Positions 12,921 through 33,576 of a stretch of DNA of 33,576 nt are shown here, in pieces. How positions within the stretch are numbered: position 1 is the first letter of the stretch; each line of letters opens with the position of its first letter. The notes under the pieces are model-generated. The model did not search any database. It saw only the letters and a list, made by a program, of their open reading frames with translations, and was not told the DNA's origin. The DNA comes from Gammaproteobacteria bacterium (GTDB taxonomy: Bacteria; Pseudomonadota; Gammaproteobacteria; Chromatiales; Chromatiaceae): the NCBI GenBank assembly GCA_003696905.1, contig RFHJ01000132.1:1-33576 (forward strand), in the 5' to 3' direction. A program made the position numbers and the translations under genes.

Positions 12921-13211
12921 TCAAGCGGCGATGTTCTCGATCCTGTCCAGCTGGTCACGTACAGCGCGCCGAGCCTCCTCCAGATCATAATCCGCCTGCA
13001 ACCCCATCCAGAACTGTTCGGACGTGCCGAGGGCGCGCGCCAGCCGCAAGGCAGTATCGGCCGTGATGGCGCGCTTGCCATGGACTATTTCATTGATCCG
13101 GCGGGGAGGCACCGCCATGGCCCGCGCCAGACGGTTCTGGCTGATCCCCAGTGGCCTCAGAAATTCCTCCAGCAGCACTTCTCCAGGGTGAATGTTGGGT
13201 AGCTTCTTCAT
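12921..13211 (-). CDS. higA: HigA-family antitoxin
   Basis: Antitoxin of 96 aa with an XRE-type helix-turn-helix. The N-terminal signature NIHPGEVLLEEFLRPLGISQNRLARAM and the recognition-helix region PPRRINEIVHGKRAITADTALRLARAL are characteristic of HigA. It should bind and neutralise the HigB RNase and repress the operon. The start is set at ATG 13211, giving TAA-G-ATG with higB (1 nt gap). The 12 upstream residues in the ORF track lie inside higB and are not used. The toxin-before-antitoxin order is the usual higBA order. Confidence 0.93.
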   Translation of the reverse strand: MKKLPNIHPGEVLLEEFLRPLGISQNRLARAMAVPPRRINEIVHGKRAITADTALRLARALGTSEQFWMGLQADYDLEEARRAVRDQLDRIENIAA

Positions 13212-13212
13212 C

Positions 13213-13494
13213 TTAGTGGTAATCCACGATCTCGACCTCATCCACATGTCCTTCGCGCCAGACGAAACAAATCCGCCACTGATCGTTTATTCGGATACTG
13301 TATCGCCCCTTGCGTTCGCCCTTCAGCGCCTCCAGCCGATTCGCCGGCGGAATACGCAGATCGTCCAGTTCGACCGCATTGTTCAACATCCGGAGCTTTC
13401 GCCTGGCAACGGCCTGGATATCGGGCGGTAATCGACGTGACCGATCACCTTTCCATACCTTCTCGGTCTCCCTGTCCTTGAAGCCCAATATCAT
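13213..13494 (-). CDS. higB: HigB-family toxin (RelE/ParE superfamily mRNA interferase)
   Basis: Small basic protein of 93 aa. Family features are the middle segment RRLPPDIQAVARRKLRMLNNAVELDDLRIPPANRLEALKG followed by GRYSIRINDQWRICFVWREG and a C-terminal His in EIVDYH. HigB toxins cut mRNA on the ribosome, and conserved Arg/Lys/His residues are present here. The gene is full length, so the module is probably intact. It is flanked on both sides by intergenic repeats, consistent with a horizontally moving module. Confidence 0.93.
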   Translation of the reverse strand: MILGFKDRETEKVWKGDRSRRLPPDIQAVARRKLRMLNNAVELDDLRIPPANRLEALKGERKGRYSIRINDQWRICFVWREGHVDEVEIVDYH

Positions 13495-15147: not shown

Positions 15148-17958
15148 TCAAAACTCTTCCCACTCGTCGTCACCCGATTCTACCGGTTCCGCCTTGGGTC
15201 TTGGTTCTGGCACGGGCCGCACCCCGGATGTCGGCGTCGCCTTCTCCGCGGGTCGCGTGGGGGCAACCGCGGTGGCTGCGGGCCGGTGCTCCACCGAAGC
15301 GGCTGCGGATGCACCTGCCGGGGCCACCCGCTCGGCGCCTGTACCCTCGGCCGTCTTGAAGAAGCTGACCAGGCGCCGCATCTCCACCGCCTTTTCGCTC
15401 AGCGATGCGGACGCGGCGGAGGTCTGCTCGGCCAGCGCGGCGTTCTGCTGGGTGACCTCGTCCATCGAGGTGACCGCCTGGTTGACCTGTTCGATGCCTG
15501 CGAGCTGTTCACTGGAGGCCGCCGCGATCTCGGCGATGATGTCGCCGACCTTCTTCACGCTCACCACGATCTCCTCCAGGGTGCTGCCCGACTCGTCCAC
15601 CAGCGCACTGCCCGCCTGGACCTTGGTCACCGAATCCTGAATCAGCTCCTTGATCTCCTTGGCCGCCTCCGCGGAGCGGGAGGCCAGATTCCGCACCTCG
15701 GTGGCCACCACGGCGAAGCCCCTGCCCTGCTCGCCGGCCCGGGCCGCCTCCACCGAGGCGTTCAGTGCCAACAGGTTGGTCTGGAAGGCGATCTCGTCGA
15801 TCACGCCGATAATTTCGGCGATCCGCTCGCTCGCATCGTTGATCTCCTTCATCGCCGTCACGGTACGTCCGACCACCTCTCCGCCCTGATTGGCCAGCTG
15901 GCTGGCGCTGGTGGCCACCTGATCGGCCACCCTGGCGTTTTCCGCATTGTTGCGCACCGTCGAGGTCAGCTCCTCCATCGAGGCCGCGGTTTCTTGCAAC
16001 GCTGCCGCCTGTTGCTCCGTGCGATTGGAGAGATTGGTGTTGCCGCTGCTGATCTCTCCGGAGGCAGAGGCAATACTCTCGGAAGCTGCATGCAGCTGCT
16101 GCACTACCCTTTGGATGTTCTCGATGGTCGTATTGACGTCCTGCTTGACCCGTTCGAACACACCCGCGTACTCGCGCGTAATGGGTTTTGTGAGGTCGCC
16201 TTCGGCCATCCGCTTCATGGTGGCGGCAATGTCACTGAAGCCGTTTTCCACCACATCCAGCAGCTGGTTCATGCCCACCCCCAACTGACGGAAGAAGCCC
16301 CGCTTGCCGTCGAGTGCGATGCGGCGGCTCAGTTCTCCGTTTTTGGCGGCGGCCACGATGTCTTCGATCTCACGCTCGACCTTCACCTCGGCGGTACGGT
16401 TGGTCCACTCCACCGCGGTGCCGATGCGGTTGCCCTCCTGATCGAATACCGGGTTGGCCACGATGCGCAGGGTCAGGCCATTGACCTCCACCTCGTTCTC
16501 CACTGCCTCCCGGATCCCGTCCAGCATGGCGCGTTGATGCCGAGGGTCCCGATGGAACAGGTCCATGTTCTTGCCTCGCAGGTCTTCGGGATCGAAGCCG
16601 GGCAGCGCCTCGCGCAGCTGGGGCGCCGCCTCCCTGAACATCCTTTCCACCGACTTGTTCAGATAGATGATGTTGTAGTCTTGATCGGCCACCATCACCG
16701 AACTGCCCACATTGTCCAGCGCGGCACGGATGCGGGCGTTCTCGGCGGCGAGCCGCCGCTCGTCCTCCAGGCGCCTGGCCTCTTCCTCGGCCGCCGCGAT
16801 CTCCTCGGTCCGGTCCACCCACTGGGTCACCCGCCCCAGATAGGTCTTCTCTTCGTCGTAGACCGGGCTGGCCACGAAGCGGACCTGACGATCGCCCATC
16901 ACCGAATCGACCGTGATGGTGCTGTCCAGGGGGCGACTGAAGGCGGCACGACCCGCCTCGTCGTCGAAATAGTCACGCAGCCGGCCGCCGATCAGCTTGT
17001 CCACGCTGAAACCAGGGTGGTTGCGGGCGATCGCCGGCGCCAGCTCGGTGAACAGGCGTCGCGCCGCCTCGTTCATGAAGATGAGGGTATTGTTCTCGTC
17101 GGAGACGGTGATGGCGGCATCCGCGTTCTCCAGTGCAGAGCGCATGCGCCCGACCTCGCTGAGCTGCTCCCTCAGGTGCTGCATCTGCTCGCGCAATTGA
17201 TCCCGCATGCGCAACAGCGCCTGATAGAGTCCAGTCGCCTTGCTCTGGCCCTCGTATTCGGTATCGAGCTCGCCCGCTGCGATGGCCTCGGCAATCCGGC
17301 TCAACACCACCGGATCGTGACCGATGGTGCGGAAGATGCCGTGAAACAGCCAGGCCATGAGCCCCACGACCGCCAGGAAGGCCAGAGAACCGATGACCGT
17401 ATAGAACAGCAGTTGACCGGACAGTGTCTTGTCCTGTTGCGCCTGCTCGGCGACCCCCGCGCGGGCCCGTTCAACGAAGGGGACGATCTGTTCGCTGAGC
17501 GCCTCCGCCGCCTTGTCGAACTTCGGCATCAGGACATTGCCGGCCGCCGGGCCGCCCGAGATGTAGGCCTTGGCCATCTCCTGACCAACCTCATAGTACC
17601 GTTCGAAGGCGGCCGACATCTTGTCATAGGTCGCCTGGTGAGCGGCATCGAGTTGACGCAGTTCGCTCAGTAATTCGTGGAAGCGCTTCGCCTGGCCGGC
17701 TGCCTCGTCGAAGCCATCATTCAGTCCGTCGAGCCCCCGAGTCGCGCTGATGTCGGAAAGCCACTGCTGCACCTGCACCACCGCCAGGTTGAGCTGATGG
17801 GCCCTGTCCATCAAAGCCACATCGTGGTCCACGAGGTCACCCAGGGACCTGATGACCCGCTGCTCCTGGACCAGTAAGGTGCTGACGGTGACACCGGCCA
17901 CCACCACCAGGGCGAGGACGATGCCGACGAGTTTCTGCTTGAAGGTGAGACGGTCCAT
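15148..17958 (-). CDS. Methyl-accepting chemotaxis protein with two PAS domains and CheR/CheB tether
   Basis: Chemoreceptor of 936 aa. TM1 spans about residues 8-29, a periplasmic helical bundle about 30-185, and TM2 about 190-215 ([21 protein letters not shown]). A HAMP-like segment beginning [20 protein letters not shown], two cytoplasmic PAS domains ([13 protein letters not shown] and [14 protein letters not shown]), a second HAMP-like region ([13 protein letters not shown]) and the MCP signalling hairpin with tip [33 protein letters not shown] follow. After a Pro/Ala-rich linker it ends DDEWEEF, a pentapeptide tether like NWETF that recruits CheR and CheB. FHRDPRHQ in PAS2 is seen in MCP-associated PAS domains; the ligand is unknown. 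ATG 17958 has GAGAGGA upstream, and the track's 78 earlier codons are not used. Confidence 0.94.
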
Positions 17959-18052
17959 GGTGCGAATTTCCTCTCGCTGATCCGGTGAAACACAGGCTGC
18001 GGCCACGGCCGCAAGGCTCGCCGGCATTCGATTTGCCGGTGCGGTACCGCAG

Positions 18053-18079
18053 CTAGCGGCCTGAGAGAGGAATCCTTTA
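18053..18079 (-). promoter_or_regulatory. Sigma-28 (FliA)-like promoter of the chemoreceptor gene
   Basis: On the minus strand the sequence reads TAAA (18079-18076), exactly 15 nt, then GCCGCTAG (18060-18053). The FliA consensus is TAAA-N15-GCCGATAA; the -35 core is perfect and the -10 matches six of eight. It lies about 95 nt upstream of the start codon, and receptors are classic FliA targets. The same 172-nt gap contains the tail of the livF transcript and an A8 run (T8 on the livF strand) without a strong hairpin. Confidence 0.65.
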
Positions 18080-18130
18080 GGGACGGCCTGAAAAAAAACA
18101 GTGAGAAGCCCGGGAACCCCGACCACAGGG

Positions 18131-18895
18131 TCAGATCGCGAGGTACTCCTCGCGCAACTCGTGATTGTCGAGCACCTCCTGGGCGGTGCCATCGAATACC
18201 ACGTTGCCCATGTCGAGGATCACCGCGCGGTCGGCGAGATTCAAGGCGGCAATGGCGTTCTGCTCCACGATGATGGTGGTAATGCCCAGCTCGCGGATAC
18301 TCTCAAGGATACGTTCGATCTCCTGCACGATCACCGGTGCCAGCCCCTCGTAGGGCTCGTCCAGCAAGAGCAGTTTCACGTCGCGGGCCAGGGCGCGTGC
18401 CACCGCCAGCATCTGCTGTTCACCGCCGGAGAGGGTGACGGCCTCCTGGGTGCGGCGCTCGGCAAGACGCGGAAAGTGTTCGTAGATCCGCTCCTTGGTC
18501 CAGCCGTGCGGCGGTGCAATCTGCGCCAGGTCCAGCGATTCCTCGACCGTCAGGCCCGGGATGATGCGCCGGTCCTCGGGTACCAGCTGGATGCCCGAGC
18601 GAGCCGCCTTCCAGGCGCTCATCTCGTGGATGGGGTGGTGATCCAGCCACACCTCGCCGTGTTTCATCTCGGGCGTATCGAGCCGCGCGATGGTACGCAG
18701 GGTCGAGGTCTTGCCGGCGCCGTTGCGCCCCAGCAGGGCCAGAATCTCGCCCTCGCGGATGTCGAAGCTGACGCCCTGGACGATATAGCTCTCGCCATAG
18801 TAAGCGTGCAATTCCCAGGCGGAAAAGAAGGCCGGAGAGGTGCCCAGCGCCTTGATCGGCGGGGTCTTGGGTGCTCGCTTGGTGGTAAAGGTCAT
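18131..18895 (-). CDS. livF: Liv-type ABC importer ATP-binding protein (LivF)
   Basis: Second ATPase subunit (254 aa) of a branched-chain-amino-acid-type ABC importer, acting at the cytoplasmic face of the LivH/LivM permease pair. It shows Walker [11 protein letters not shown]-loop region [21 protein letters not shown], signature [15 protein letters not shown], Walker B LLLLDEP and the H-loop position in TTIIVEQN, which has the Gln/Asn variant common in LivF. The N terminus carries about 25 extra residues before the core fold. ATG 18895 overlaps the livG stop as ATGA. It is the last gene of the operon, and no CoA ligase or other enzyme follows. Confidence 0.92.
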
Positions 18896-23503: not shown

Positions 23504-24169
23504 ATGCCGGAATCTGCCTGCGAAATGGACACGCACATCATCGTGGCGGACGATCACCCCCTGTTCCGCGATGCCGTCACCCACCTGCTGGAACGCAGCA
23601 TACCCATGGTGCGCGTCAGCCAGGTAGAGAGCTTTCGCCAGCTCAACGAGCAGCTGGCGGGAGATGTCCTGCCCAGTCTGGTGCTGCTGGACCTGAAACT
23701 GATCGACACCCGCGGCCTGGACGGCCTGTTGCTGCTGAAGAAACACTACCCGTCGCTGCCCGTACTCATCATCTCCGCCTTCGACGACGACAAGGTGGTA
23801 CAGATGGCCATGCAGTGCGGCGCCAGCGGCTTCGTACCCAAGCGCCTGGAGATGGAGCGCATGGCCGAGGCCATCCAGTCCGTGCTGGAGGGCGAGATGT
23901 GGTTTCCGGAGCTCGAGGTGGCCGACGAGGCACCGCCGCTGGATACCAAGGCGTTGGTCGAATCACTCACCCCGGCTCAGCTGCGCGTCCTTTCCCTGCT
24001 GCGCGACGGCATGCCCAGCAAGGAGATGGCGGCCGCCATGTCGGTCACCGAGGCCACCATCAAGGCCCATCTCACCGAGATCTTTCGCAAACTGAAGGTC
24101 AAGAACCGGACCCAGGCGGTGCTCGCGACCCAGGATCTCGACCTTCCTTCCCAGGGACTGCCGGAATAG
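23504..24169 (+). CDS. crbR: LuxR/NarL-type response regulator, CrbR/ErdR-like
   Basis: DNA-binding response regulator of 221 aa. The receiver domain has acidic residues D16-D17, phosphoacceptor D63 in LVLLDLKLID, and K113 in GFVPKRLEM. The C-terminal LuxR helix-turn-helix (about 158-210) reads LTPAQLRVLSLLRDGMPSKEMAAAMSVTEATIKAHLTEIFRKLKV. Together with the SLC5-kinase hybrid beside it, this matches CrbR/ErdR, activators of acetate and related carbon-use genes in Vibrio and Pseudomonas; the name rests on architecture and context, not an alignment. ATG 23504 follows GGAGGA and GAGGA sequences; Met8 is a weaker alternative. Divergent from the ABC importer and convergent with its probable kinase, 6 nt apart. 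Confidence 0.85.
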   Translation: MPESACEMDTHIIVADDHPLFRDAVTHLLERSIPMVRVSQVESFRQLNEQLAGDVLPSLVLLDLKLIDTRGLDGLLLLKKHYPSLPVLIISAFDDDKVVQMAMQCGASGFVPKRLEMERMAEAIQSVLEGEMWFPELEVADEAPPLDTKALVESLTPAQLRVLSLLRDGMPSKEMAAAMSVTEATIKAHLTEIFRKLKVKNRTQAVLATQDLDLPSQGLPE

Positions 24170-24175
24170 GCGGTA

Positions 24176-27100
24176 TCAGCCGGCCGCGCGGGCCTGCTCC
24201 TGTTGTGTCAGGGCAGTGTGCAGTATCGATCGCAGCTTGGCCGGCTCCACCGGCTTGGCGAGAAACTGAAAGCCCGCGGCCAGCGCCGATTCACGCACTC
24301 GCGCGTCCTGTTCGGCGGTGATGAGCACGCCGAGGAAGCGCTCCCCGTGACGCGCCCGGTAGTGGTGCAGCAGATCCAGACCGTTGGTCATTTCGTGCAA
24401 TCGGTAGTCCATGAGCACGATGTCGCACGGGACGGTGGCATCCGCCCGCTGCAGATATCCCTCGGCACTGTTCTCGCACAGCACCTCGGCGCCCCAGCGT
24501 TCGAGCACGGTGCGCGTGGCGCGCAATATCTCGGGATCGTCGTCGACGCACAGGATGCGTCGCCCCTCCAGCCAGCGGGTCTTGAAAGGACGGGTATCGA
24601 CACTGGAATGCCGCACTGCCTGGACCTGTACCCGCGGCACCACCACACTGAAGGTGCTGCCCACCCCCTCGCGCGACCGGACCTCCAGGCGGTGGCCGAG
24701 CAATTCCGCCATGCGTTCGCAGATCGCCAGCCCCAGGCCCACACCTTCGGCATTGTGATCGAGCTGCTGGAACTCGCGGAATATCGCCTCCAGCTTGTCC
24801 GGAGGAATACCGCGTCCGGAATCACGTACCTCGATGCGGATGGCATCCGGACCGGCCCGTCGGCAGACCACCAGGATCGTACCCTGCTCGGTGTAACGAA
24901 TGGCATTGGAGAGAAAGTTCTGCAGGATGCTGCGCAACAGATTGCGATCGCTGCGGGTCCCGCAGTGGCTCTCATGGATCCGCAGGTTCAGCCCCTTCTG
25001 CCGGGCGAGTACCGAAAATTCGTTGTACAGGGCGTCGAACAGCGGCTGGATGGGGAAGGCGGTGACCTCGGGCCGCATGGCTCCGGCATCCAGCTTCGAG
25101 ATGTCGAGCAGCGCCCGCAGCAGCGATTCGGCCGACGCCAGGGCATCCAGGGCATTGCGCGCCAGCAACTGGCGCTCGTCCCCCGCCAGATCCTCGTAGA
25201 GGGCGCCCAGGTACAGCTTGGATGCCCCCAACGGCTGGGTCAGGTCGTGGCTGGCCGCCGCCAGGAAGCGCGACTTGCTGCGGGTACTCTCCTCCAGCCG
25301 CGCATTGAGTTCCGACAGCCGCCGGGTGCGGGCCTCGACCTGGCTCTCCAGGCGCTCGTTGACCCGCGCCAGTTCGCGCTCTGCCTGCTTGATCGCCGTG
25401 ATGTCGGTGAAGGTGGTGATGAAGCCCCCATCGGGCAGGCGCGCGCCCTGGGTCTGGATGATCCGGCCGTCGCGCCATTCGCGGACATAGGTATAGGGAC
25501 GGCCGTGGCGCAGATAATCAAGCCGCTTGCGTACCTCTGCATCCAGCGGACCGGTGAACACGGGCCCGAAGCCGCGCTGCACGTTGAATCGAATCACCTC
25601 CTCGATCGGCATGCCCACGTGCAGAAAATCCGCGGGAAAGGCAAACAGCTCACTATAAAGCCGATTCCAGGTCATCAGGCGCAGATCCGGGTCGACCACG
25701 CTCACCGCCTGGCCGATGTGATCGAGGGTGACCTGCAGGATCTCACGGTTGAACTGCAAGGCCTGCCCTGCGGTATCCAGCAGCCGGTAGAGATCGCGCT
25801 CGCCGTCCCGGTCGAGACTGCCACGCAGGGCGGTGTCGATCAGATGTTCGGCACTGGCGGTGCCGATGCTGCCCGCCAACAGGTGCTGGGCCTGCCGCAG
25901 CAGGCGGTCGCCGGCGCGCTGGTGCTGCTCGCGGACGGGGTCACAGCCGTGCTCCAGGAAGAACTGCCGGGTGCGTTCCTCGCCAGTGAAGCGGCTGCAC
26001 AGCTCCGCGAGATCCCCCACCCGCAGGCGGTGGTCCAGTGCCTCTGGCTGCGCCTCGTGCAGGTCCACATAGCTGCTCGCCTGCAGGCGGTCGACGAAGG
26101 AATGATCGGCACGCAGCGACACCAGCACATACAGCAACAGGTTGGCGCCGAGGCTCCAGAAGACCCCATGGCTCAGGTAGTCGTCGAAATGCCAGCCGAA
26201 CAGGGCCCGAGGCGCCAGCCATTGCAGACCAAAGGGTCCCTCCGTCAGGAACCCGGATGGCAGCCAGGCCGCATTGCCCAGCGATGGCAGCAGCAACAGA
26301 TACAACCAGAGGGCGAAGCCGGCGATCAACCCCGCCACCACGCCATGGCGATGCCCCCGGCGCCAGTAGAGCCCCCCGACCAGGGCCGGCAGAAACTGGA
26401 TCGCCGCCGCGAAGGAGAGCAGACCGATGCTGTAGAGCGACTTGCCGCTGCCCGCCAGGAGATAGTAGCCATAGGCCAGCAGCATCAGGCCCAGGATGGT
26501 GAGGCGCCGGATCAACAGCAGATGGCAATGCAGGCTGCGGCCCTCCGCCTGACGTCCCCAACGCACCATGAGCGGAAAGATGAGGTCGTTCGATACCATG
26601 GTGCTGAGTGCCAGGGTGGAGACGATCACCATCCCGGTCGCTGCCGAGAAGCCGCCCAGATAGGCGAGCAGGGTCAACAAGTCGTGCCCGCTCTGCAGCG
26701 GCAGAAAGAGCACATACAGATCCGGATTTCCGCCCCAGGCGAAGCGCTGCAGGCCGGCGCCGGTGATGGGCACCACTGCCAGGCTGAACAACAGCAGATA
26801 GAGCGGGAATCCCCAACGGGCAAAGGGCAACTCGTTCCCGCGTCCCTCCACCGCGAAGACGTGGAACTGCCTTGGCAGACACAGGATGGCGGCTGCCGCC
26901 AGCAGGGTCCGGGTGATGAAGCCACCGTCCAGGTCCGATTCGTGAAAGGGGAGCAGCATCAGCGAGAATGCCGTCAGACTGGACGAGCCGGCCGCCGCCT
27001 GGCGCAACAGCTGGACCGCCAGTCCCGCGATGGCGAGGAAGGCCACCAGCTTGACCATCGACTCCACCGATATGGCGTGGATCATGCCACGGTGGTGCAC

Positions 27101-27655
27101 CGAGGCATCGATGGTGCGGGCACCGAACAGGACCGCGAAGGCCGCCAGTATCAGGGTCAGCACCAGGGCGGTATCGACGTTGTGCAGCAGGCTTCCCGGG
27201 TCGGCGGCCGCCGGTGCCAGGGCATCATAGGCATTGGCAATGGCCTTGATCTGCAGCGAGATGTAGGGCAGCGTCCCTACCAGTGCGATGAGGGTGACGA
27301 CCGCCGCCACCTGATGGCTCTTGCCATAGCGGCCGGCGATGAAGTCGGCGATGGTGGTCGACTTCTGGCGCTTGCTCACACTGAGCAGCTTCTTCAGAAA
27401 GGAATGGAACAGCAGAAAGACCAGAATGGGGCCGAGGTAGATGGCAAAGAAGGAAAGTCCGCCCTGGGCCGCATTGCCTACCGCCCCGTAGAAGGTCCAC
27501 GACGTGCAGTAGACCGTCAGCGAGAGGGTAAAGATCAGTGGCTGGTGGCGCGAGACATGCCCCTCTGGTTGGGCGTCACCGCGATGCGCCACAAAGAACA
27601 GCGCGCCCAGATAGAGCGCGACGACGCCGGCCAGGAGTTCGGCACCGAGCCCCAT
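24176..27655 (-). CDS. crbS: Sodium:solute symporter-histidine kinase-receiver hybrid, CrbS-like
   Basis: Membrane sensor kinase of 1,159 aa. Residues 1-515 form an SLC5/SSS transporter-like region with about a dozen TM segments (SLTVYCTSWTFYGAVG; FIAGRYGKS). A STAC-like helical linker lies at 540-630, PAS at about 640-755 (GQAVSVVDPDLRLMTWNR), HisKA with H803 in ASHDLTQPLGASKLY, HATPase with NFLSNAIRYT, DSGRGIPP and GVGLGLAICERM, and a C-terminal receiver with D1083 (VLMDYRL) and K1134. This is the CrbS/MxtR layout, in which solute sensing or transport is tied to a LuxR-type regulator. ATG 27655 lies 17 nt after the ilvD stop, so it may share the ilvD transcript. No strong ribosome-binding site is seen. 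Confidence 0.9.
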   Translation of the reverse strand: MGLGAELLAGVVALYLGALFFVAHRGDAQPEGHVSRHQPLIFTLSLTVYCTSWTFYGAVGNAAQGGLSFFAIYLGPILVFLLFHSFLKKLLSVSKRQKSTTIADFIAGRYGKSHQVAAVVTLIALVGTLPYISLQIKAIANAYDALAPAAADPGSLLHNVDTALVLTLILAAFAVLFGARTIDASVHHRGMIHAISVESMVKLVAFLAIAGLAVQLLRQAAAGSSSLTAFSLMLLPFHESDLDGGFITRTLLAAAAILCLPRQFHVFAVEGRGNELPFARWGFPLYLLLFSLAVVPITGAGLQRFAWGGNPDLYVLFLPLQSGHDLLTLLAYLGGFSAATGMVIVSTLALSTMVSNDLIFPLMVRWGRQAEGRSLHCHLLLIRRLTILGLMLLAYGYYLLAGSGKSLYSIGLLSFAAAIQFLPALVGGLYWRRGHRHGVVAGLIAGFALWLYLLLLPSLGNAAWLPSGFLTEGPFGLQWLAPRALFGWHFDDYLSHGVFWSLGANLLLYVLVSLRADHSFVDRLQASSYVDLHEAQPEALDHRLRVGDLAELCSRFTGEERTRQFFLEHGCDPVREQHQRAGDRLLRQAQHLLAGSIGTASAEHLIDTALRGSLDRDGERDLYRLLDTAGQALQFNREILQVTLDHIGQAVSVVDPDLRLMTWNRLYSELFAFPADFLHVGMPIEEVIRFNVQRGFGPVFTGPLDAEVRKRLDYLRHGRPYTYVREWRDGRIIQTQGARLPDGGFITTFTDITAIKQAERELARVNERLESQVEARTRRLSELNARLEESTRSKSRFLAAASHDLTQPLGASKLYLGALYEDLAGDERQLLARNALDALASAESLLRALLDISKLDAGAMRPEVTAFPIQPLFDALYNEFSVLARQKGLNLRIHESHCGTRSDRNLLRSILQNFLSNAIRYTEQGTILVVCRRAGPDAIRIEVRDSGRGIPPDKLEAIFREFQQLDHNAEGVGLGLAICERMAELLGHRLEVRSREGVGSTFSVVVPRVQVQAVRHSSVDTRPFKTRWLEGRRILCVDDDPEILRATRTVLERWGAEVLCENSAEGYLQRADATVPCDIVLMDYRLHEMTNGLDLLHHYRARHGERFLGVLITAEQDARVRESALAAGFQFLAKPVEPAKLRSILHTALTQQEQARAAG

Positions 27656-27672: not shown

Positions 27673-29535
27673 TCACTGGCCCCCGCGTCTCAACTGGGAG
27701 AGATCGCGGACCGCGCCGCGCGCCGCCGAAGTGGTGAGCGCGGCATAGGCCTGCAACGCCTCGGAGACCCGACGGTCGCGATTCGCCGGCTGCCACGCCT
27801 TCTCCCCCCGCGCCTCCATGGCCGCACGGCGACGGGCCAGCTCCTCGTCGTCCACCGCCACCCGGATGAGCCGGTTGGGGATGTCGATCTCGATCCGATC
27901 GCCCTCCTCCACCAGGCCGATGGTGCCGCCTTCCGCCGCCTCGGGCGAGCAGTGGCCGATCGACAGGCCCGAGGTGCCGCCGGAGAAACGGCCATCGGTG
28001 ATCAGGGCGCAGGACTTGCCCAGCCCCTTGGACTTCAGGTAGCTGGTGGGATAGAGCATCTCCTGCATCCCTGGCCCGCCCTTGGGTCCTTCGTAACGGA
28101 TGATCACCACATCACCCGGCTGAATCCGGTCACCCAGAATGGCATCGACCGCCGCGTCCTGACTCTCGAAGATGCGTGCCGGACCTGCGAAGGTCCAGAT
28201 CGACTCGTCCACGCCGGCCGTCTTGACGATGCAACCCTGCTCCGCCAGGTTGCCATAGAGCACCGCGAGGCCGCCCTCGCGGCTATAGGCATGTTGCAGA
28301 TCGCGGATACAGCCCGTCTCGCGATCCAGATCCAGATCGGGCCATTGACTGTCCTGACTGAAGGCCACCTGGGTCGGGATTCCCCCCGGGCCTGCGAGAT
28401 AGCGTCGCTTCACCTCCTCGCCGGGGTTACGCATGACGTCCCAGTGCTCCAGGGCATCGGCCATGCTGGGGGCATGCACCACTGGGACGTCCCGATGCAG
28501 CAGGCCGGCCCGATCCAGTTCACCGAGAATGCCCATCACGCCCCCGGCGCGATGGACGTCCTCCATGTGATAGAGCGGTGTCGAGGGTGCCACCTTGCAC
28601 AGATTCGGCACCTTGCGGCTGAGACGATCGATGTCGCTCATGGTGAAATCCACCTTCGCCTCGTGGGCCGCCGCCAGCAGGTGCAACACGGTGTTGGTGG
28701 ACCCCCCCATGGCGATGTCCAGCGTCATGGCATTCTCGAAGGCCTCGAAGGTGGCGATGCTGCGGGGCAATACCGTCTCGTCGTCCTGCTCGTAGTAGCG
28801 GCGGGTGATCTCGACGATCAGACGCCCCGCCTCCAGGAACAGCGCCTTGCGCTCGGCATGAGTGGCCACCAGGGAGCCATTGCCGGGCAACGAGAGGCCC
28901 AGCGCCTCGGTCAGGCAGTTCATGGAGTTGGCGGTGAACATGCCCGAACAGGAGCCACAGGTGGGACAGGCGGAGCGCTCGATCTGCTCCACCTCTTCGT
29001 CCGATTCGTTGGGATCGGCGGCCGAAACCATGGCATCCACCAGGTCCAGCTTCACCTCGCCCTTGTCGGCCAGGCGCACCTTGCCTGCCTCCATCGGCCC
29101 GCCGGAGACGAAGACCGTGGGAATGTTCAGGCGCAGCGCCGCCATCAGCATGCCGGGGGTGATCTTGTCACAATTGGAGATGCACACCAGGGCATCGGCA
29201 CAGTGCGCATTGACCATGTATTCCACCGAATCGGCGATCAGGTCGCGCGAGGGGAGCGAATAGAGCATGCCGCCATGCCCCATGGCGATACCGTCGTCCA
29301 CTGCGATGGTGTTGAATTCCTTGGCCACCCCACCGGCCTGTTGGATCTCGCGCGCCACCAGTTGGCCCAGATCCTTGAGATGCACATGCCCTGGCACGAA
29401 TTGGGTGAAGGAGTTGGCGATGGCGATGATGGGCTTGTCGAAGTCTCCCTCTTTCATTCCGGTCGCGCGCCAGAGGGCGCGGGCGCCGGCCATGTTGCGA
29501 CCATGGGTCGTGGTATGGGAGCGATATCGTGGCAT
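27673..29535 (-). CDS. ilvD: Dihydroxy-acid dehydratase IlvD
   Basis: Iron-sulfur enzyme of 620 aa (E. coli 616) that dehydrates 2,3-dihydroxy-isovalerate and -methylvalerate in valine, leucine and isoleucine synthesis; cytosolic, Mg-dependent. Cluster and active-site motifs are [23 protein letters not shown] (C122 and Lys124), [17 protein letters not shown] (C193, C196) and [26 protein letters not shown] 29535 is used, with GGAG 8 nt upstream; the track's first 12 residues are outside the family start. No other ilv genes are nearby. It is followed at 17 nt by the crbS-like gene. Confidence 0.97.
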
Positions 29536-29569
29536 GCCTGTATCTCCGGAAGGAATTGCCGAGGGACGC

Positions 29570-29599
29570 ATTATCCTGCCTCGGGGCGAGCAAGCGCAA
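29570..29599 (-). promoter_or_regulatory. Possible ilvD promoter
   Basis: On the minus strand TTGCGC (29599-29594), an 18-nt spacer and GATAAT (29575-29570) lie about 35 nt upstream of the ilvD start, in the 105-nt gap after the GGDEF-EAL gene. The -10 matches five of six, the -35 only three. No terminator hairpin with a T run was seen in this gap. Confidence 0.3.
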
Positions 29600-29640
29600 A
29601 TCGGCCGCAGCCCATGGAAATGAATTCGGACAGACTCGCC

Positions 29641-32367
29641 CTACTGGCTGCTGTAGGCAAGACGCAGCCGATGCGAGCGCGGCACCGGCTCTGGGCGGGA
29701 AAGGCCATAGCCCTGGAGGTAATCGACCCCCTGCTTGCGCATGCTCATGACCGTGGCACTGTCTTCGATCATCTCGGCGACGGTCTCGACGCCGAGCACC
29801 TGAGCGATTTCACAGATCATGCGCACCGATACGGCGGACAGGGGATCGGTGACCGCATTGCGCACGAACTGCCCATCGATCTTGATGTAGTCCACCTGAA
29901 GGTTGTGGAGATAGCCGAGCGAACTCATGCCCGCACCAAAGTCGTCGAGCATCAAACGGTATCCCATCGCACGCAACCGACCGGCCAGTTTGCGTGCCAC
30001 CTCCAAATTGGTGATGGCCGCTGTCTCGGTGATCTCGAAACAGACCCGCTCCGGTGGTACCTTGCAGCGTCTCGCCTCTTCCTCGATGTAGTCGACCAGC
30101 CCTTCATCGGTAAGCGTCTGGCCGGACAGATTGATGGTGCAGCGCGAATCCGGCGGCATGCACTCCGGATCGCCCATCGCCTCCATGGCCAGCGCGATCA
30201 CCCGCCGGTCGATACAGCGCATCATGTCGAAACGCTCGGCCGCCGGCAGAAACAGCCCGGGCGCAATATCCGAGCCATCGGCATCGCGAAGGCGCACCAG
30301 AAACTCGTAGAAGGCCGGCGCTTCCCCCTCGGTTTTGCGCACCGGCCAGATCGCCTGGCGATAGAGCAGGAACTGATCGTTCTCCAGCGCCTGCTGCAGG
30401 CGAGGCAACCATTGAACCTGGCGACGCCGCTCACCCACTGCACGGTCATCGGGCTGGAAGACATGCACGGTATTGCGGCCGGCCTCCTTCGCCGCGTGGC
30501 AGGCCATGTCAGCGTTTTTCATGATCTCCTCGAACCCGCCCAACTCCGGATCCACCGGCACCACGCCCAAGCTGGCATGCACGTCGATCACCTGTCCCGA
30601 CCACAGGAAACGCATCGACTCCAGGCGCTTGCGCAGGCGGTCCGCCAACTCGCCCACGATGGTCATGTCGGGCGCCCGCATCAGGATGGCGAATTCGTCC
30701 CCGCCCATGCGGCCGATGCAGTCATCGTCGCGCAGGGCGTTTTCGAGGACCTCCGTCACCATCTTGAGCAGCTGATCTCCCGCCTCGTGACCGTAGGTAT
30801 CATTGATCAACTTGAAGCGGTCGAGGTCGATGAACACCAGGGCATGGACTGCATCGTCGCTCACCTGCCGGGAGAGCACGGCGCGCACCCGCTGCTCGAA
30901 CGCGGCGCGGTTCAGCAGACCCGTCAGGTGGTCGTGCGAGGCCTGATAGGCGAGGCGACTGGTCAGCTCATGTTCCCTGCTGGTATCGCGAATGGCCAGC
31001 ACCAGACCACCATGTTCGTGCCCTTCCAGGCGGGAGACCCGGATACTCACCGGAATGCGACCCCGCGAACGGTTGTTCAAGAGCAGGTCGGGGCCGGCAT
31101 CGCCCTCGCACATCCGTTCCAACCAGGCATGGACATCGGGCAAGGCCCTATCGTCGAAGGCGTCGATCAGCTCCAGCACCCGGTTGGCGGGCTTGCCCAG
31201 AAGCTCGTCCGCAGCGCCCTCCAGCATCTCCTCCGCCACCCGGTTCAGATAACGCACCCGATACCCCTCATCCAGCATGATCACGGCATCGGAGATCGAG
31301 CGCATGGCGCCATCGGCACGACGGCGCTCCTGTTCCAGCTCACGCCCTTTGCGCAGGCTCTCCTGCCTGGCCTGGGCGCGATTCTGAAGCGCCGCGACCA
31401 GGAACATCATGGCCAGCCCCAGCCCGAGGGGCGGAAGCCAAACCCAGGGGCCGAGCAGATCCGATGCATCGAGAGACCGACTCACCCGCAACGTCCGACT
31501 GCCCGAAAACACCGGCCGCCCTCCCAGCAACTCCACCAGGTATCCCTCGCCGGGTAGCCATCGCAGCTCGCTGGAGGGTGTTCTTCCGGCCTCCTCACCC
31601 TCCACCACCGTGAAGTGGGCCAAGGGAAAGTCCGCCTGGAGATTCGCCATCAGCCTGGCCGATGAAAGCCCGAGGAGGAACACACCGTCGAACTGCCGCA
31701 GCCGCTGGCCGCGGGAACCGGGTACGAGGAATCCGCGATAGGTCGGGGCACCATAGAAGATGTCCCCGGCGAAACGCGCCCCTGGGCTCCAATCGTCGAG
31801 CACCATTGGACGGCCAGCAGACACCAGGCGGGTCAGCAGGGGCAGATCGTCCCCTTGACGCATCACGTCCGCCCCCAGCAGGGCCAGGATGCGCGGGTCG
31901 CTGGGTTCAAGGAAGCGAATGGGCAAATAACCCTGTTGACCATCGACCAGGGCATGAGGGCCGTTACCCCGGATATGGAAGGTGGGATAGCCGGCTTCCT
32001 CCATCTCGCCGACGAATTGGGCCGCCCGGTCACCCGGAACCCAGCTGGCGTAGGCAATGAGATGGGTCTCGGGGCTGGCCTGCCGGATCGACGCAGCGAG
32101 GGCGGCCAGACGCGATGGATCGAAATCGCTCATCCCCTGCTGAGTCGCCGCCAGGGCATTGAGCATCGCCAAGGCATTGCGGTCGGCCTGTTCCAGGACC
32201 TCAGTCGCCTGGCTTACCGTCTGCAGGAATTCCTCGCGCTCCGCCTCGACCCGCAGATCCAGCAGGAAAGAGAACACCAGGGAAACCGGCAACAGAAATG
32301 CCAGCACCTGCCACCAGTGGGGTTGACGCAGTAATATCGGGGAGGACTTCACTGCGTCTTCTGCCAT
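29641..32367 (-). CDS. Membrane CHASE-PAS-GGDEF-EAL c-di-GMP enzyme
   Basis: Cyclic-di-GMP enzyme of 908 aa. TM1 is about 17-37; a periplasmic CHASE-like domain (AYASWVPGDRAAQF...GYPTFHIRG...YLPIRFLEPSDPRILALLGADV) occupies about 50-240; TM2 is about 308-328. PAS (350-465) and GGDEF follow, with the active site RMGGDEF at 553-559 and an intact inhibitory site RDDD (546-549) five residues before it. The EAL domain reads EFL (688-690) instead of EAL but keeps the glutamate plus N746, E778, D808-D809, K829, E865/E868 and QGYGL, so phosphodiesterase activity is plausible. Net activity cannot be predicted. ATG 32367 overlaps the upstream gene by 19 nt; GTG 32352 with a GTGA overlap is an alternative. 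Either implies coupling. Confidence 0.93.
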   Translation of the reverse strand: MAEDAVKSSPILLRQPHWWQVLAFLLPVSLVFSFLLDLRVEAEREEFLQTVSQATEVLEQADRNALAMLNALAATQQGMSDFDPSRLAALAASIRQASPETHLIAYASWVPGDRAAQFVGEMEEAGYPTFHIRGNGPHALVDGQQGYLPIRFLEPSDPRILALLGADVMRQGDDLPLLTRLVSAGRPMVLDDWSPGARFAGDIFYGAPTYRGFLVPGSRGQRLRQFDGVFLLGLSSARLMANLQADFPLAHFTVVEGEEAGRTPSSELRWLPGEGYLVELLGGRPVFSGSRTLRVSRSLDASDLLGPWVWLPPLGLGLAMMFLVAALQNRAQARQESLRKGRELEQERRRADGAMRSISDAVIMLDEGYRVRYLNRVAEEMLEGAADELLGKPANRVLELIDAFDDRALPDVHAWLERMCEGDAGPDLLLNNRSRGRIPVSIRVSRLEGHEHGGLVLAIRDTSREHELTSRLAYQASHDHLTGLLNRAAFEQRVRAVLSRQVSDDAVHALVFIDLDRFKLINDTYGHEAGDQLLKMVTEVLENALRDDDCIGRMGGDEFAILMRAPDMTIVGELADRLRKRLESMRFLWSGQVIDVHASLGVVPVDPELGGFEEIMKNADMACHAAKEAGRNTVHVFQPDDRAVGERRRQVQWLPRLQQALENDQFLLYRQAIWPVRKTEGEAPAFYEFLVRLRDADGSDIAPGLFLPAAERFDMMRCIDRRVIALAMEAMGDPECMPPDSRCTINLSGQTLTDEGLVDYIEEEARRCKVPPERVCFEITETAAITNLEVARKLAGRLRAMGYRLMLDDFGAGMSSLGYLHNLQVDYIKIDGQFVRNAVTDPLSAVSVRMICEIAQVLGVETVAEMIEDSATVMSMRKQGVDYLQGYGLSRPEPVPRSHRLRLAYSSQ

Positions 32368-33323
32368 CGCTTCGCCTTGGCACGCAGTTTATCGGGGAGT
32401 CGAATGCCGGCCAGCTTCACCAAACCCTCGTTGAGCCACAGATCCCACCGGCGATTGGCGACAATCGGGATTTCACCCGGCGACACACCTTCCAGAATCG
32501 CCAATGCGGTCTCTCCTGCCCACTCCCCCTGTTCCTCCGGAATCTTGGTAAAGCCCAACATGGTCACCGGCATCATCCATTCGTGGTTGGTCACGCTCAG
32601 CGTCGCGACCTTGTCCTGGATCGCTGCCCGAACGGCCTCGAAATCCCAGCCATTGATGCCTGCATGGCTGCCGATTGCGACAAAGGGGAAGCGCTGTGCC
32701 TTCTCGAAGGCCTCGATCCAGGCCTCCGGAGTATCCACCAGGGCACTTTCCATCGTCAGCCCAAGATCCTCGGCAGCCTTGCGGAAACGGGCCAGATTCT
32801 TGCGCTCGGTGGTGGTATCAGCACCCAGGTAGAAGAAATGGTTTGCATCACCCCTGAGACGCCGCGCTTCCTTGAGCATGGCACGCACTGGCGCCACCTC
32901 GATCATTCCGGTCACATTCTCGAAGGGAAAGCCATATTCTTCCACCGACCAGTTCACACCACAGAACACGAAGGGCAAGGCAGCGTCCTTGTAATAGGGA
33001 ACGATCAGATAGCGCGCCGCGTTGTCGTCCGCGGTGATAACCACGTCGGGCTTCCAGCTCTCGATCAATTGCTTCGCGGCCAACGCCGCTGCTCGTTTAT
33101 CCGCGTCACTCTTGTGACGCTTGGTGTCCATGTCGAACTGACGCAGCTCGCATTTGCCTTGGAGTACCTTTTCCAACCCACGCTGCACACCATCCGACCA
33201 GCTGTAGCCCTGATGATAGGAGGAGACGAAGAAACAACGAGGGAGCGCCCAGGCGTTGGCACACAATATCGAGACCAGAAACAGCCCCGCGAACGGCAGG
33301 CGGGAAAATTGCCTCTTCAACAT
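32349..33323 (-). CDS. Periplasmic ABC_sub_bind-family protein
   Basis: Secreted solute-binding protein of 324 aa with signal peptide RLPFAGLFLVSILCANAWA. Features of the ABC_sub_bind (TrpX/uncharacterised transport periplasmic component) family are RCFFVSSYHQGYSWSDGVQRGL near the mature N terminus, KPDVVITADDNAARYLIVPYY, LPFVFCGVNW, and VTGMIEVAPVRAMLKEARRLRGDANHFFYLGADTTTE. No ABC permease or ATPase lies beside it; instead its stop overlaps the GGDEF-EAL start. It therefore more likely delivers ligand information to the CHASE region than feeds a transporter. The ligand is unknown. ATG 33323 has only a weak GGA upstream. Confidence 0.85.
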   Translation of the reverse strand: MLKRQFSRLPFAGLFLVSILCANAWALPRCFFVSSYHQGYSWSDGVQRGLEKVLQGKCELRQFDMDTKRHKSDADKRAAALAAKQLIESWKPDVVITADDNAARYLIVPYYKDAALPFVFCGVNWSVEEYGFPFENVTGMIEVAPVRAMLKEARRLRGDANHFFYLGADTTTERKNLARFRKAAEDLGLTMESALVDTPEAWIEAFEKAQRFPFVAIGSHAGINGWDFEAVRAAIQDKVATLSVTNHEWMMPVTMLGFTKIPEEQGEWAGETALAILEGVSPGEIPIVANRRWDLWLNEGLVKLAGIRLPDKLRAKAKRWQKTQ

Positions 33324-33430
33324 ATGCGAGTATCCAAAAAAGTGGTTTCACACAACGACTTGGATTTGAAAGTGTAGCGCGTTTCTAGGACGAGCACAGG
33401 ACACCGTAAACATTGTCGAGCCAGCACCGA

Positions 33431-33457
33431 TAAACGGCAGCGGGACGGGAAACTTTA
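33431..33457 (-). promoter_or_regulatory. Sigma-28 (FliA)-like promoter of the binding-protein/GGDEF-EAL operon
   Basis: On the minus strand TAAAGTTT (33457-33450) is followed by 11 nt and GCCGTTTA (33438-33431). The FliA consensus is TAAAGTTT-N11-GCCGATAA: the -35 element matches fully, the spacing is exact, and the -10 matches six of eight. It implies a leader of about 100 nt before the gene at 33323. ORFs called across 33,325-33,554 are not supported as genes. Confidence 0.75.
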
Positions 33458-33513
33458 ATTCGACTAACTCCCGTGACGCCTTGGCCACACCCCTGATCAT
33501 GGAAAATGTCATC

Positions 33514-33576
33514 GATGCGGTTCGTGCCTCACCGCATCCTACATCATCCTCCAACTTCGTAGGGTGTGGTGAGCAC
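33514..33576. repeat. Inverted pair of GTAGGRTGYGGTGAG-type repeat units, cut by the window edge
   Basis: The unit GTAGGATGCGGTGAGGCAC runs on the minus strand (33542-33524) and a related GTAGGGTGTGGTGAGCAC on the plus strand (33559-33576). The first forms a hairpin, GATGCGGT (33514-33521) against ACCGCATC (33531-33538). Such units recur between genes in many bacteria. The second copy reaches the last base, so its full extent is unknown. Confidence 0.6.

Follow-up and report, generated by a model that had tools for sequence, protein, structure and literature searches.

At the end of a contig from a draft genome of the Chromatiaceae (assembly GCA_003696905.1, contig RFHJ01000132.1), of which the whole analysed stretch of 33,576 nucleotides (nt) is called here the window, two overlapping genes encode a periplasmic solute-binding protein (SBP) of the ABC_sub_bind type and a membrane enzyme with domains for both synthesis and breakdown of cyclic di-GMP (c-di-GMP). 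The question raised by this locus is what an SBP without a transporter does beside such an enzyme. We consider it probable that the two proteins form a co-receptor of the LuxP-LuxQ or NspS-MbaA kind, in which the SBP, depending on its ligand state, would dock on the periplasmic CHASE domain of the enzyme and set c-di-GMP turnover in motile cells; the proposal is drawn by analogy with those systems. The two genes, identified as open reading frames (ORFs), are:

32349..33323, minus strand: SBP gene, ABC_sub_bind-type periplasmic solute-binding protein, 324 amino acids; ORF and PF04392 match
29641..32367, minus strand: CHASE-PAS-GGDEF-EAL membrane enzyme gene, 908 amino acids; ORF, Pfam domains and two transmembrane (TM) segments

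The overlap amounts to 19 nt when counted from the ATG of the enzyme and to 4 nt if an alternative GTG start is used, and the ORFs thus bear out, with both start choices, the overlap of 4-19 nt described in the first-pass annotation. Its remark that ABC transporter genes are missing beside the SBP holds as well: none adjoins the pair among the window ORFs, and the adjacent permease and ATPase genes expected of a TrpX-like importer are absent.

The proposal is carried mainly by the conservation of the pairing, which was searched in both directions. A genome-wide SBP search yielded 80 loci, in which the gene after the SBP nearly always encodes a TM signal transducer, either a CHASE-(PAS)-GGDEF-EAL protein, a CHASE-histidine kinase (HK) or, in more distant homologues, a methyl-accepting chemotaxis protein (MCP); ABC ATPase matches occur in 2 of these 80 loci, neither of them adjacent to the SBP. 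When the SBP scores at least 428 bits, a CHASE transducer of the window's subfamily lies directly downstream in 41 of 43 loci, and the same holds for all of the ten top SBP matches (at least 396 bits; the window itself is one of them) among 398 genomes sampled evenly across the phylum. In the reverse search, 184 genomes of the class were scanned with a profile built on the CHASE region of SBP-linked genes; an SBP gene stands immediately upstream in 13 of the 14 best loci, and in 9/10 once the window and the three loci that coincide with members of the profile are left out. Because the profile derives from SBP-linked genes, its score threshold is tied to the linkage, whereas the genomes behind the 9/10 figure are independent. 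No upstream SBP was found in the 16 lower-scoring loci of this profile, nor in the 30 loci of a generic PF03924 search, which served as negative control. The first-pass annotation had made its case depend on the two genes being conserved together, and non-conservation did not occur in either direction. The linkage of the SBP is stable and is with a membrane sensor gene, not with a transporter (41/43, 9/10).

The same unit is not confined to one kind of output. Behind the SBP and CHASE proteins are found GGDEF-EAL domains, HK with or without REC and Hpt domains, and a SpoIIE domain (L036), and on the SBP tree the output must have changed at least 8 times if MCP partners are taken in, not all of these changes being forced by its starred branches alone; the MCP partners that were examined carry Cache domains, not CHASE. 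Among distant relatives the parts are joined in single chains, as SBP-PAS-GGDEF-EAL (L127, L128), SBP-PAS-HK (L125) and SBP with SpoIIE (L124, L132). The description of the locus as an SBP with a c-di-GMP enzyme, from which the analysis started, is therefore correct for the pair and too narrow for the data, since the SBP and CHASE unit is found on several output kinds. The finding that in many bacteria one and the same pair is connected to different signalling outputs suggests a reusable two-protein chemical sensor. A wider proposal, made here tentatively, is that the SBP together with this CHASE subfamily constitutes a sensing cassette of wide occurrence, possibly with one common ligand, which has been built into c-di-GMP enzymes, SpoIIE phosphatases and kinases of phosphorelays and, through other sensor domains, into chemoreceptors. 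Tandem SBP copies, separate or in one ORF, were observed at L036, L048, L056, L066 and L068 and possibly represent two receptors per sensor; at L124 (1811-8144) and L132 (3939-8974) the chain that combines ABC_sub_bind with the SpoIIE phosphatase is followed by another ABC_sub_bind gene.

Membership of the SBP in the PF04392 superfamily is supported by both sequence and fold. Its Pfam match to PF04392 (ABC_sub_bind) has E=3.6e-9, the only other Pfam match being a weak one to Peripla_BP_6, under the cut-off of that family, and hydropathy gives a hydrophobic, signal-peptide-like N terminus (about residues 1-26). The AlphaFold2 model (mean predicted local distance difference test score, pLDDT, 94.5) adopts a Venus-flytrap fold, and its best PDB matches in Foldseek are the tryptophan-bound 3lft, 3lkv and the CD0873 structures (6hnj); profile matches to TrpX-type 3lft, 3lkv and 6hni range from E 5e-12 to 1e-9 and include the NVTGxx[DE] stretch. 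Fold and family signature are therefore shared with the TrpX-type ABC_sub_bind proteins (3lft, 3lkv, 6hni/6hnj); however, these are described as SBPs for transport or adhesion, whereas the window family adjoins sensors, and by its scores it forms a distinct clade. Conservation reaches at least 90% at 55 alignment positions of the SBP, many of which lie at strand ends that, in this type of fold, line the cleft, where cleft-type positions are nearly invariant; a specific ligand is therefore likely. The TrpX-type relatives, which are the only hint to its nature, suggest an aromatic or other amino-acid-like compound. NspS is a PotD-type SBP; homology with it was considered and rejected, since the SBP family differs (PF04392, weakly Peripla_BP_6, not PotD/SBP_bac).

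The partner enzyme is organized as follows:

31597..32127, minus strand: CHASE domain, proposed SBP docking platform, residues 81-257; PF03924, 5.9e-11
30970..31308, minus strand: PAS domain, residues ~354-466; PF08448, 2.2e-7
30472..30942, minus strand: GGDEF domain, residues 476-632; PF00990, 9.2e-42; GGDEF and RxxD motifs intact
29692..30402, minus strand: EAL domain, residues 656-892; PF00563, 2.1e-56; signature reads EFL

Hydropathy places the two TM segments at about residues 17-42 and 307-328, on either side of the CHASE domain. Catalytic motifs are present in both output domains (GGDEF, RxxD, ExLxR, N, E, DD, K, E, Q): the GGDEF domain retains RDDD-N5-GGDEF, that is a product-inhibition site and the diguanylate cyclase site, and the EAL domain reads EFLVR, INLS, FEITE, LDDFG, IKID, AEMIE and YLQGY. 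The closest solved PAS-GGDEF-EAL structure is that of RbdA (PA0861, Pseudomonas; 5xgb, E=2.9e-125). The periplasmic domain of RbdA differs, since it is not CHASE and was modelled as all-helical, and the accessible part of the source describes no partner SBP for it (PMC11372557). The CHASE region of the window enzyme was modelled by AlphaFold2 over residues 41-306 (pLDDT 86.7); its closest counterparts in the PDB, by profile as well as by fold, are the CHASE structures of PcrK and AHK4, and 5ere is also among the matches of the fold search.

Taken together, the two genes would constitute one ligand receptor. The SBP would bind a small molecule in the periplasm and, in one of its ligand states, loaded or empty, dock on its partner's CHASE domain, which is tandem-PAS-like; from there the change would pass across the membrane and through PAS to GGDEF-EAL and would tip c-di-GMP turnover towards synthesis or towards breakdown. 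Docking, ligand control, the direction of the output and the effect on motility are thus the parts of this scheme that we infer.

LuxP of Vibrio harveyi is an SBP of the sugar-binding type and docks on the tandem-PAS-like periplasmic domain of LuxQ, which needs no ligand of its own. The window pair likewise combines a periplasmic SBP with a tandem-PAS-like sensor domain; however, LuxQ belongs to the histidine kinases, and the CHASE subfamily of the window is not what its periplasmic domain consists of. LuxQ is listed without a ligand in PMC8694187, which also cites Wu et al. 2017, a paper whose title describes Dret_0059 of Desulfohalobium retbaense (PDB 5ere) as having a solute-binding domain and tandem PAS-like sensor domains on one polypeptide. 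Dret_0059 is a fused single chain with a dCache-type sensor, while the window pair consists of two genes and uses CHASE. In the NspS-MbaA system of Vibrio cholerae, also found in Sinorhizobium meliloti, NspS detects polyamines, and MbaA switches between synthesis and breakdown of c-di-GMP according to the ligand occupancy of NspS (PMC8967002, PMC9993111); the nspS and mbaA genes overlap (PMC8967002). The likeness is that of a periplasmic SBP and a membrane GGDEF-EAL protein encoded by an overlapping gene pair; differently from NspS-MbaA, the window module is also found with HK and SpoIIE outputs, and it is often preceded by a FliA-like promoter when the output is GGDEF-EAL.

The promoter region of the pair contains the following elements:

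33457-33431, minus strand: FliA-like promoter TAAAGTTT-N11-GCCGTTTA, ~107 nt 5' of the SBP start codon; pattern and weight-matrix scans
33407-33433, plus strand: overlapping FliA-like site TAAACATT-N11-ACCGATAA, 16.7 bits, directed off the contig end

FliA promoters of the genome were sampled through a pattern search and individual stretches, and a search for the exact FliA pattern with a variable gap gave no match. The site before the SBP gene agrees with the consensus (TAAAGTTT-N11-GCCGATAA-like) at 14/16 positions and scores 17.0 bits with a matrix from other sites of the same genome, a value that none of 3000 Markov-resampled upstream regions reached. The first-pass annotation had called it a near-perfect FliA promoter; the -35 element is indeed perfect, while 2 of the 8 positions of the -10 element are mismatches, and the wording was slightly generous. 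Only the site of an MCP gene outscores it within the window; this strong FliA-like site, the best of the window (TAAAGGATTCCTCTCTCAGGCCGCTAG, 18079-18053, minus strand), stands before the MCP gene at 15148-18192 (minus strand), whose true start is probably near 17961.

FliA-like sites were found upstream of 11/27 SBP genes of the GGDEF-EAL class against 6/106 control genes of the same loci (Fisher 2e-5), and they are rare before SBP genes of the HK class (2/23). The culturable relative Sedimenticola selenatireducens (L028) is one of those in which the pair occurs together with a FliA-like site. For this reason FliA control appears, from the promoter patterns, to be a recurrent and not a universal trait of the c-di-GMP version, and the sigma-28 control first proposed for the window keeps its support from enrichment across the class, with the qualification that it is not shared by all members and that the -10 element of the window is imperfect. 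These counts also bear on another explanation, namely that the FliA-like signal serves a gene past the contig end, through the plus-strand site, while a different promoter, so far unrecognised, drives the SBP operon. The two sites overlap and score almost alike (16.7 and 17.0 bits), and the minus-strand one has the two -10 mismatches; however, homologous SBP genes of the GGDEF class show an enrichment of FliA-like sites in the same upstream position, and a consensus scan found no sigma-70-type site in 29400-33576, which makes this explanation rather unlikely. An overlapping, oppositely directed pair of sigma-28 sites is possibly what the sequence represents.

In the same genome, FliS, CheY-like and YcgR-like genes lie behind FliA-like sites, which makes it likely that the genome has a flagellar regulon that includes a c-di-GMP brake. 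The YcgR-like gene, which encodes a PilZ flagellar brake (G000 contig C293, L116), could plausibly serve the c-di-GMP enzyme as effector. Sigma-28 would read the operon at least in part, the enzyme of the pair being probably switched on together with the flagella, so that the receptor would be made in flagellated cells and would tune c-di-GMP and, through it, the YcgR-type brake. Production together with flagella would put the enzyme beside YhjH and BifA, and we know of no coupling of either protein to a periplasmic SBP. YhjH of E. coli and BifA of P. aeruginosa are FliA-dependent phosphodiesterases (PMC4866697), similar to what is proposed for the window enzyme in being c-di-GMP enzymes of the flagellar regulon; by analogy with them and with RbdA, our guess is that breakdown is the dominant activity.

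The SBP could also have two uses, feeding an unlinked importer and reporting its occupancy to the sensor, as maltose-binding protein does with Tar, and indeed several SBPs serve transport and signalling alike (PMC9602780). Against such a dual role, adjacent ABC genes are lacking in nearly all homologous loci, and both ABC_sub_bind matches of the genome, a fragmentary draft about 92% complete from which a distant importer may be missing, adjoin sensors; we regard it as improbable. Just one ABC_sub_bind match besides that of the pair is present in this draft, and it likewise overlaps a sensor kinase gene: it lies on G000 contig C156 (L104, 9699-13042) and overlaps by 4 nt the gene of a membrane HAMP-HK-REC-Hpt hybrid kinase, with no transporter.

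Similarly improbable, in our view, is that the two proteins are co-expressed and act separately, the SBP serving a remote transporter and the CHASE domain binding a ligand of its own like AHK4 and PcrK. SBPs with distantly encoded transporters are common, and the window CHASE domain is structurally like the ligand-binding CHASE domains of these two proteins; a cytokinin-like ligand is conceivable for it. Separate action is, however, at odds with the exclusive two-way linkage of the SBP with one CHASE subfamily, maintained across outputs and phyla, and with the existence of single-chain SBP fusions among distant relatives. In the compared pairs the SBP is also far more conserved (~50-60% identity) than CHASE (~20-35%), the reverse of what is expected if CHASE bound the ligand. 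In the SBP-linked CHASE family, the columns aligned with Asp262 and Thr294 of AHK4 are mostly changed, to Leu/Phe and to Phe/Leu/Ile/Val, respectively, even if the window CHASE has Asp at the first; this change at the AHK4 pocket positions is weak evidence against direct ligand binding, because PcrK differs there too, being also without the Asp. A chance neighbourhood was rejected in view of the two-way conservation, and an ordinary transport SBP in view of the lack of ABC genes and the linkage to the sensor.

Some observations weigh against a ligand-controlled c-di-GMP co-receptor made in motile cells. Two close SBP homologues (L017 and L035) have no neighbouring CHASE partner. The distances of SBP and CHASE are correlated (r=0.60, and r=0.53 for pairs with different outputs, compared with at most 0.33 in 1000 shuffles), but shared ancestry was not removed from this mirror-tree correlation. 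Intact GGDEF and EAL motifs do not indicate which activity is dominant. As for the promoter, its -10 element is off consensus at two positions, the matrix behind the score of 17.0 bits was built from few promoters, a FliA-like site precedes the SBP gene in just 11 of the 27 GGDEF-class loci, and the completely sequenced relative L005 shows no such site beyond a weak match.

Co-receptors made of an SBP and a sensor are a kind already known from LuxP-LuxQ and NspS-MbaA. Pairing of PF04392 with a CHASE transducer was not found in the open-access literature searched, outside which many subscription papers lie, and no paper in that literature combines ABC_sub_bind and GGDEF. According to a review on c-di-GMP sensing, SBP_bac_3, fused in RmcA, was the only member of the periplasmic-binding-protein clan that had been studied in such networks (PMC8846402). 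Control of c-di-GMP by an SBP is known from few systems. If the cassette proposal is right, the flagellar-regulon version would couple the signal of the cassette to the motor brake in motile cells. The pair also opens up a well-delimited family of dozens of natural pairs that share one receptor unit and differ in output; their natural variation could reveal partner choice, docking surface and ligand, and a single assay for the ligand would be usable with the kinase and the c-di-GMP versions alike.

The downstream border of the pair is marked by one further element:

29628..29641, minus strand: terminator-like hairpin with T-rich tail at the enzyme stop, before ilvD; consensus scan, weak alone

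The next gene on the same strand, named ilvD from its translation, lies 69 nt beyond the enzyme, and the hairpin, as weak evidence, would limit the operon to two genes. Elsewhere in the window, two small adjacent genes (12921-13494, minus strand) resemble, by translation only, a HigB/HigA toxin-antitoxin pair. A long symporter-like sensor kinase with a receiver (24176-27655, minus strand) stands beside a LuxR-type response regulator (23504-24169, plus strand); together (23504-27655) they resemble CrbS/CrbR, and next to them is an ABC transporter of the branched-chain or urea type that has an SBP of its own.

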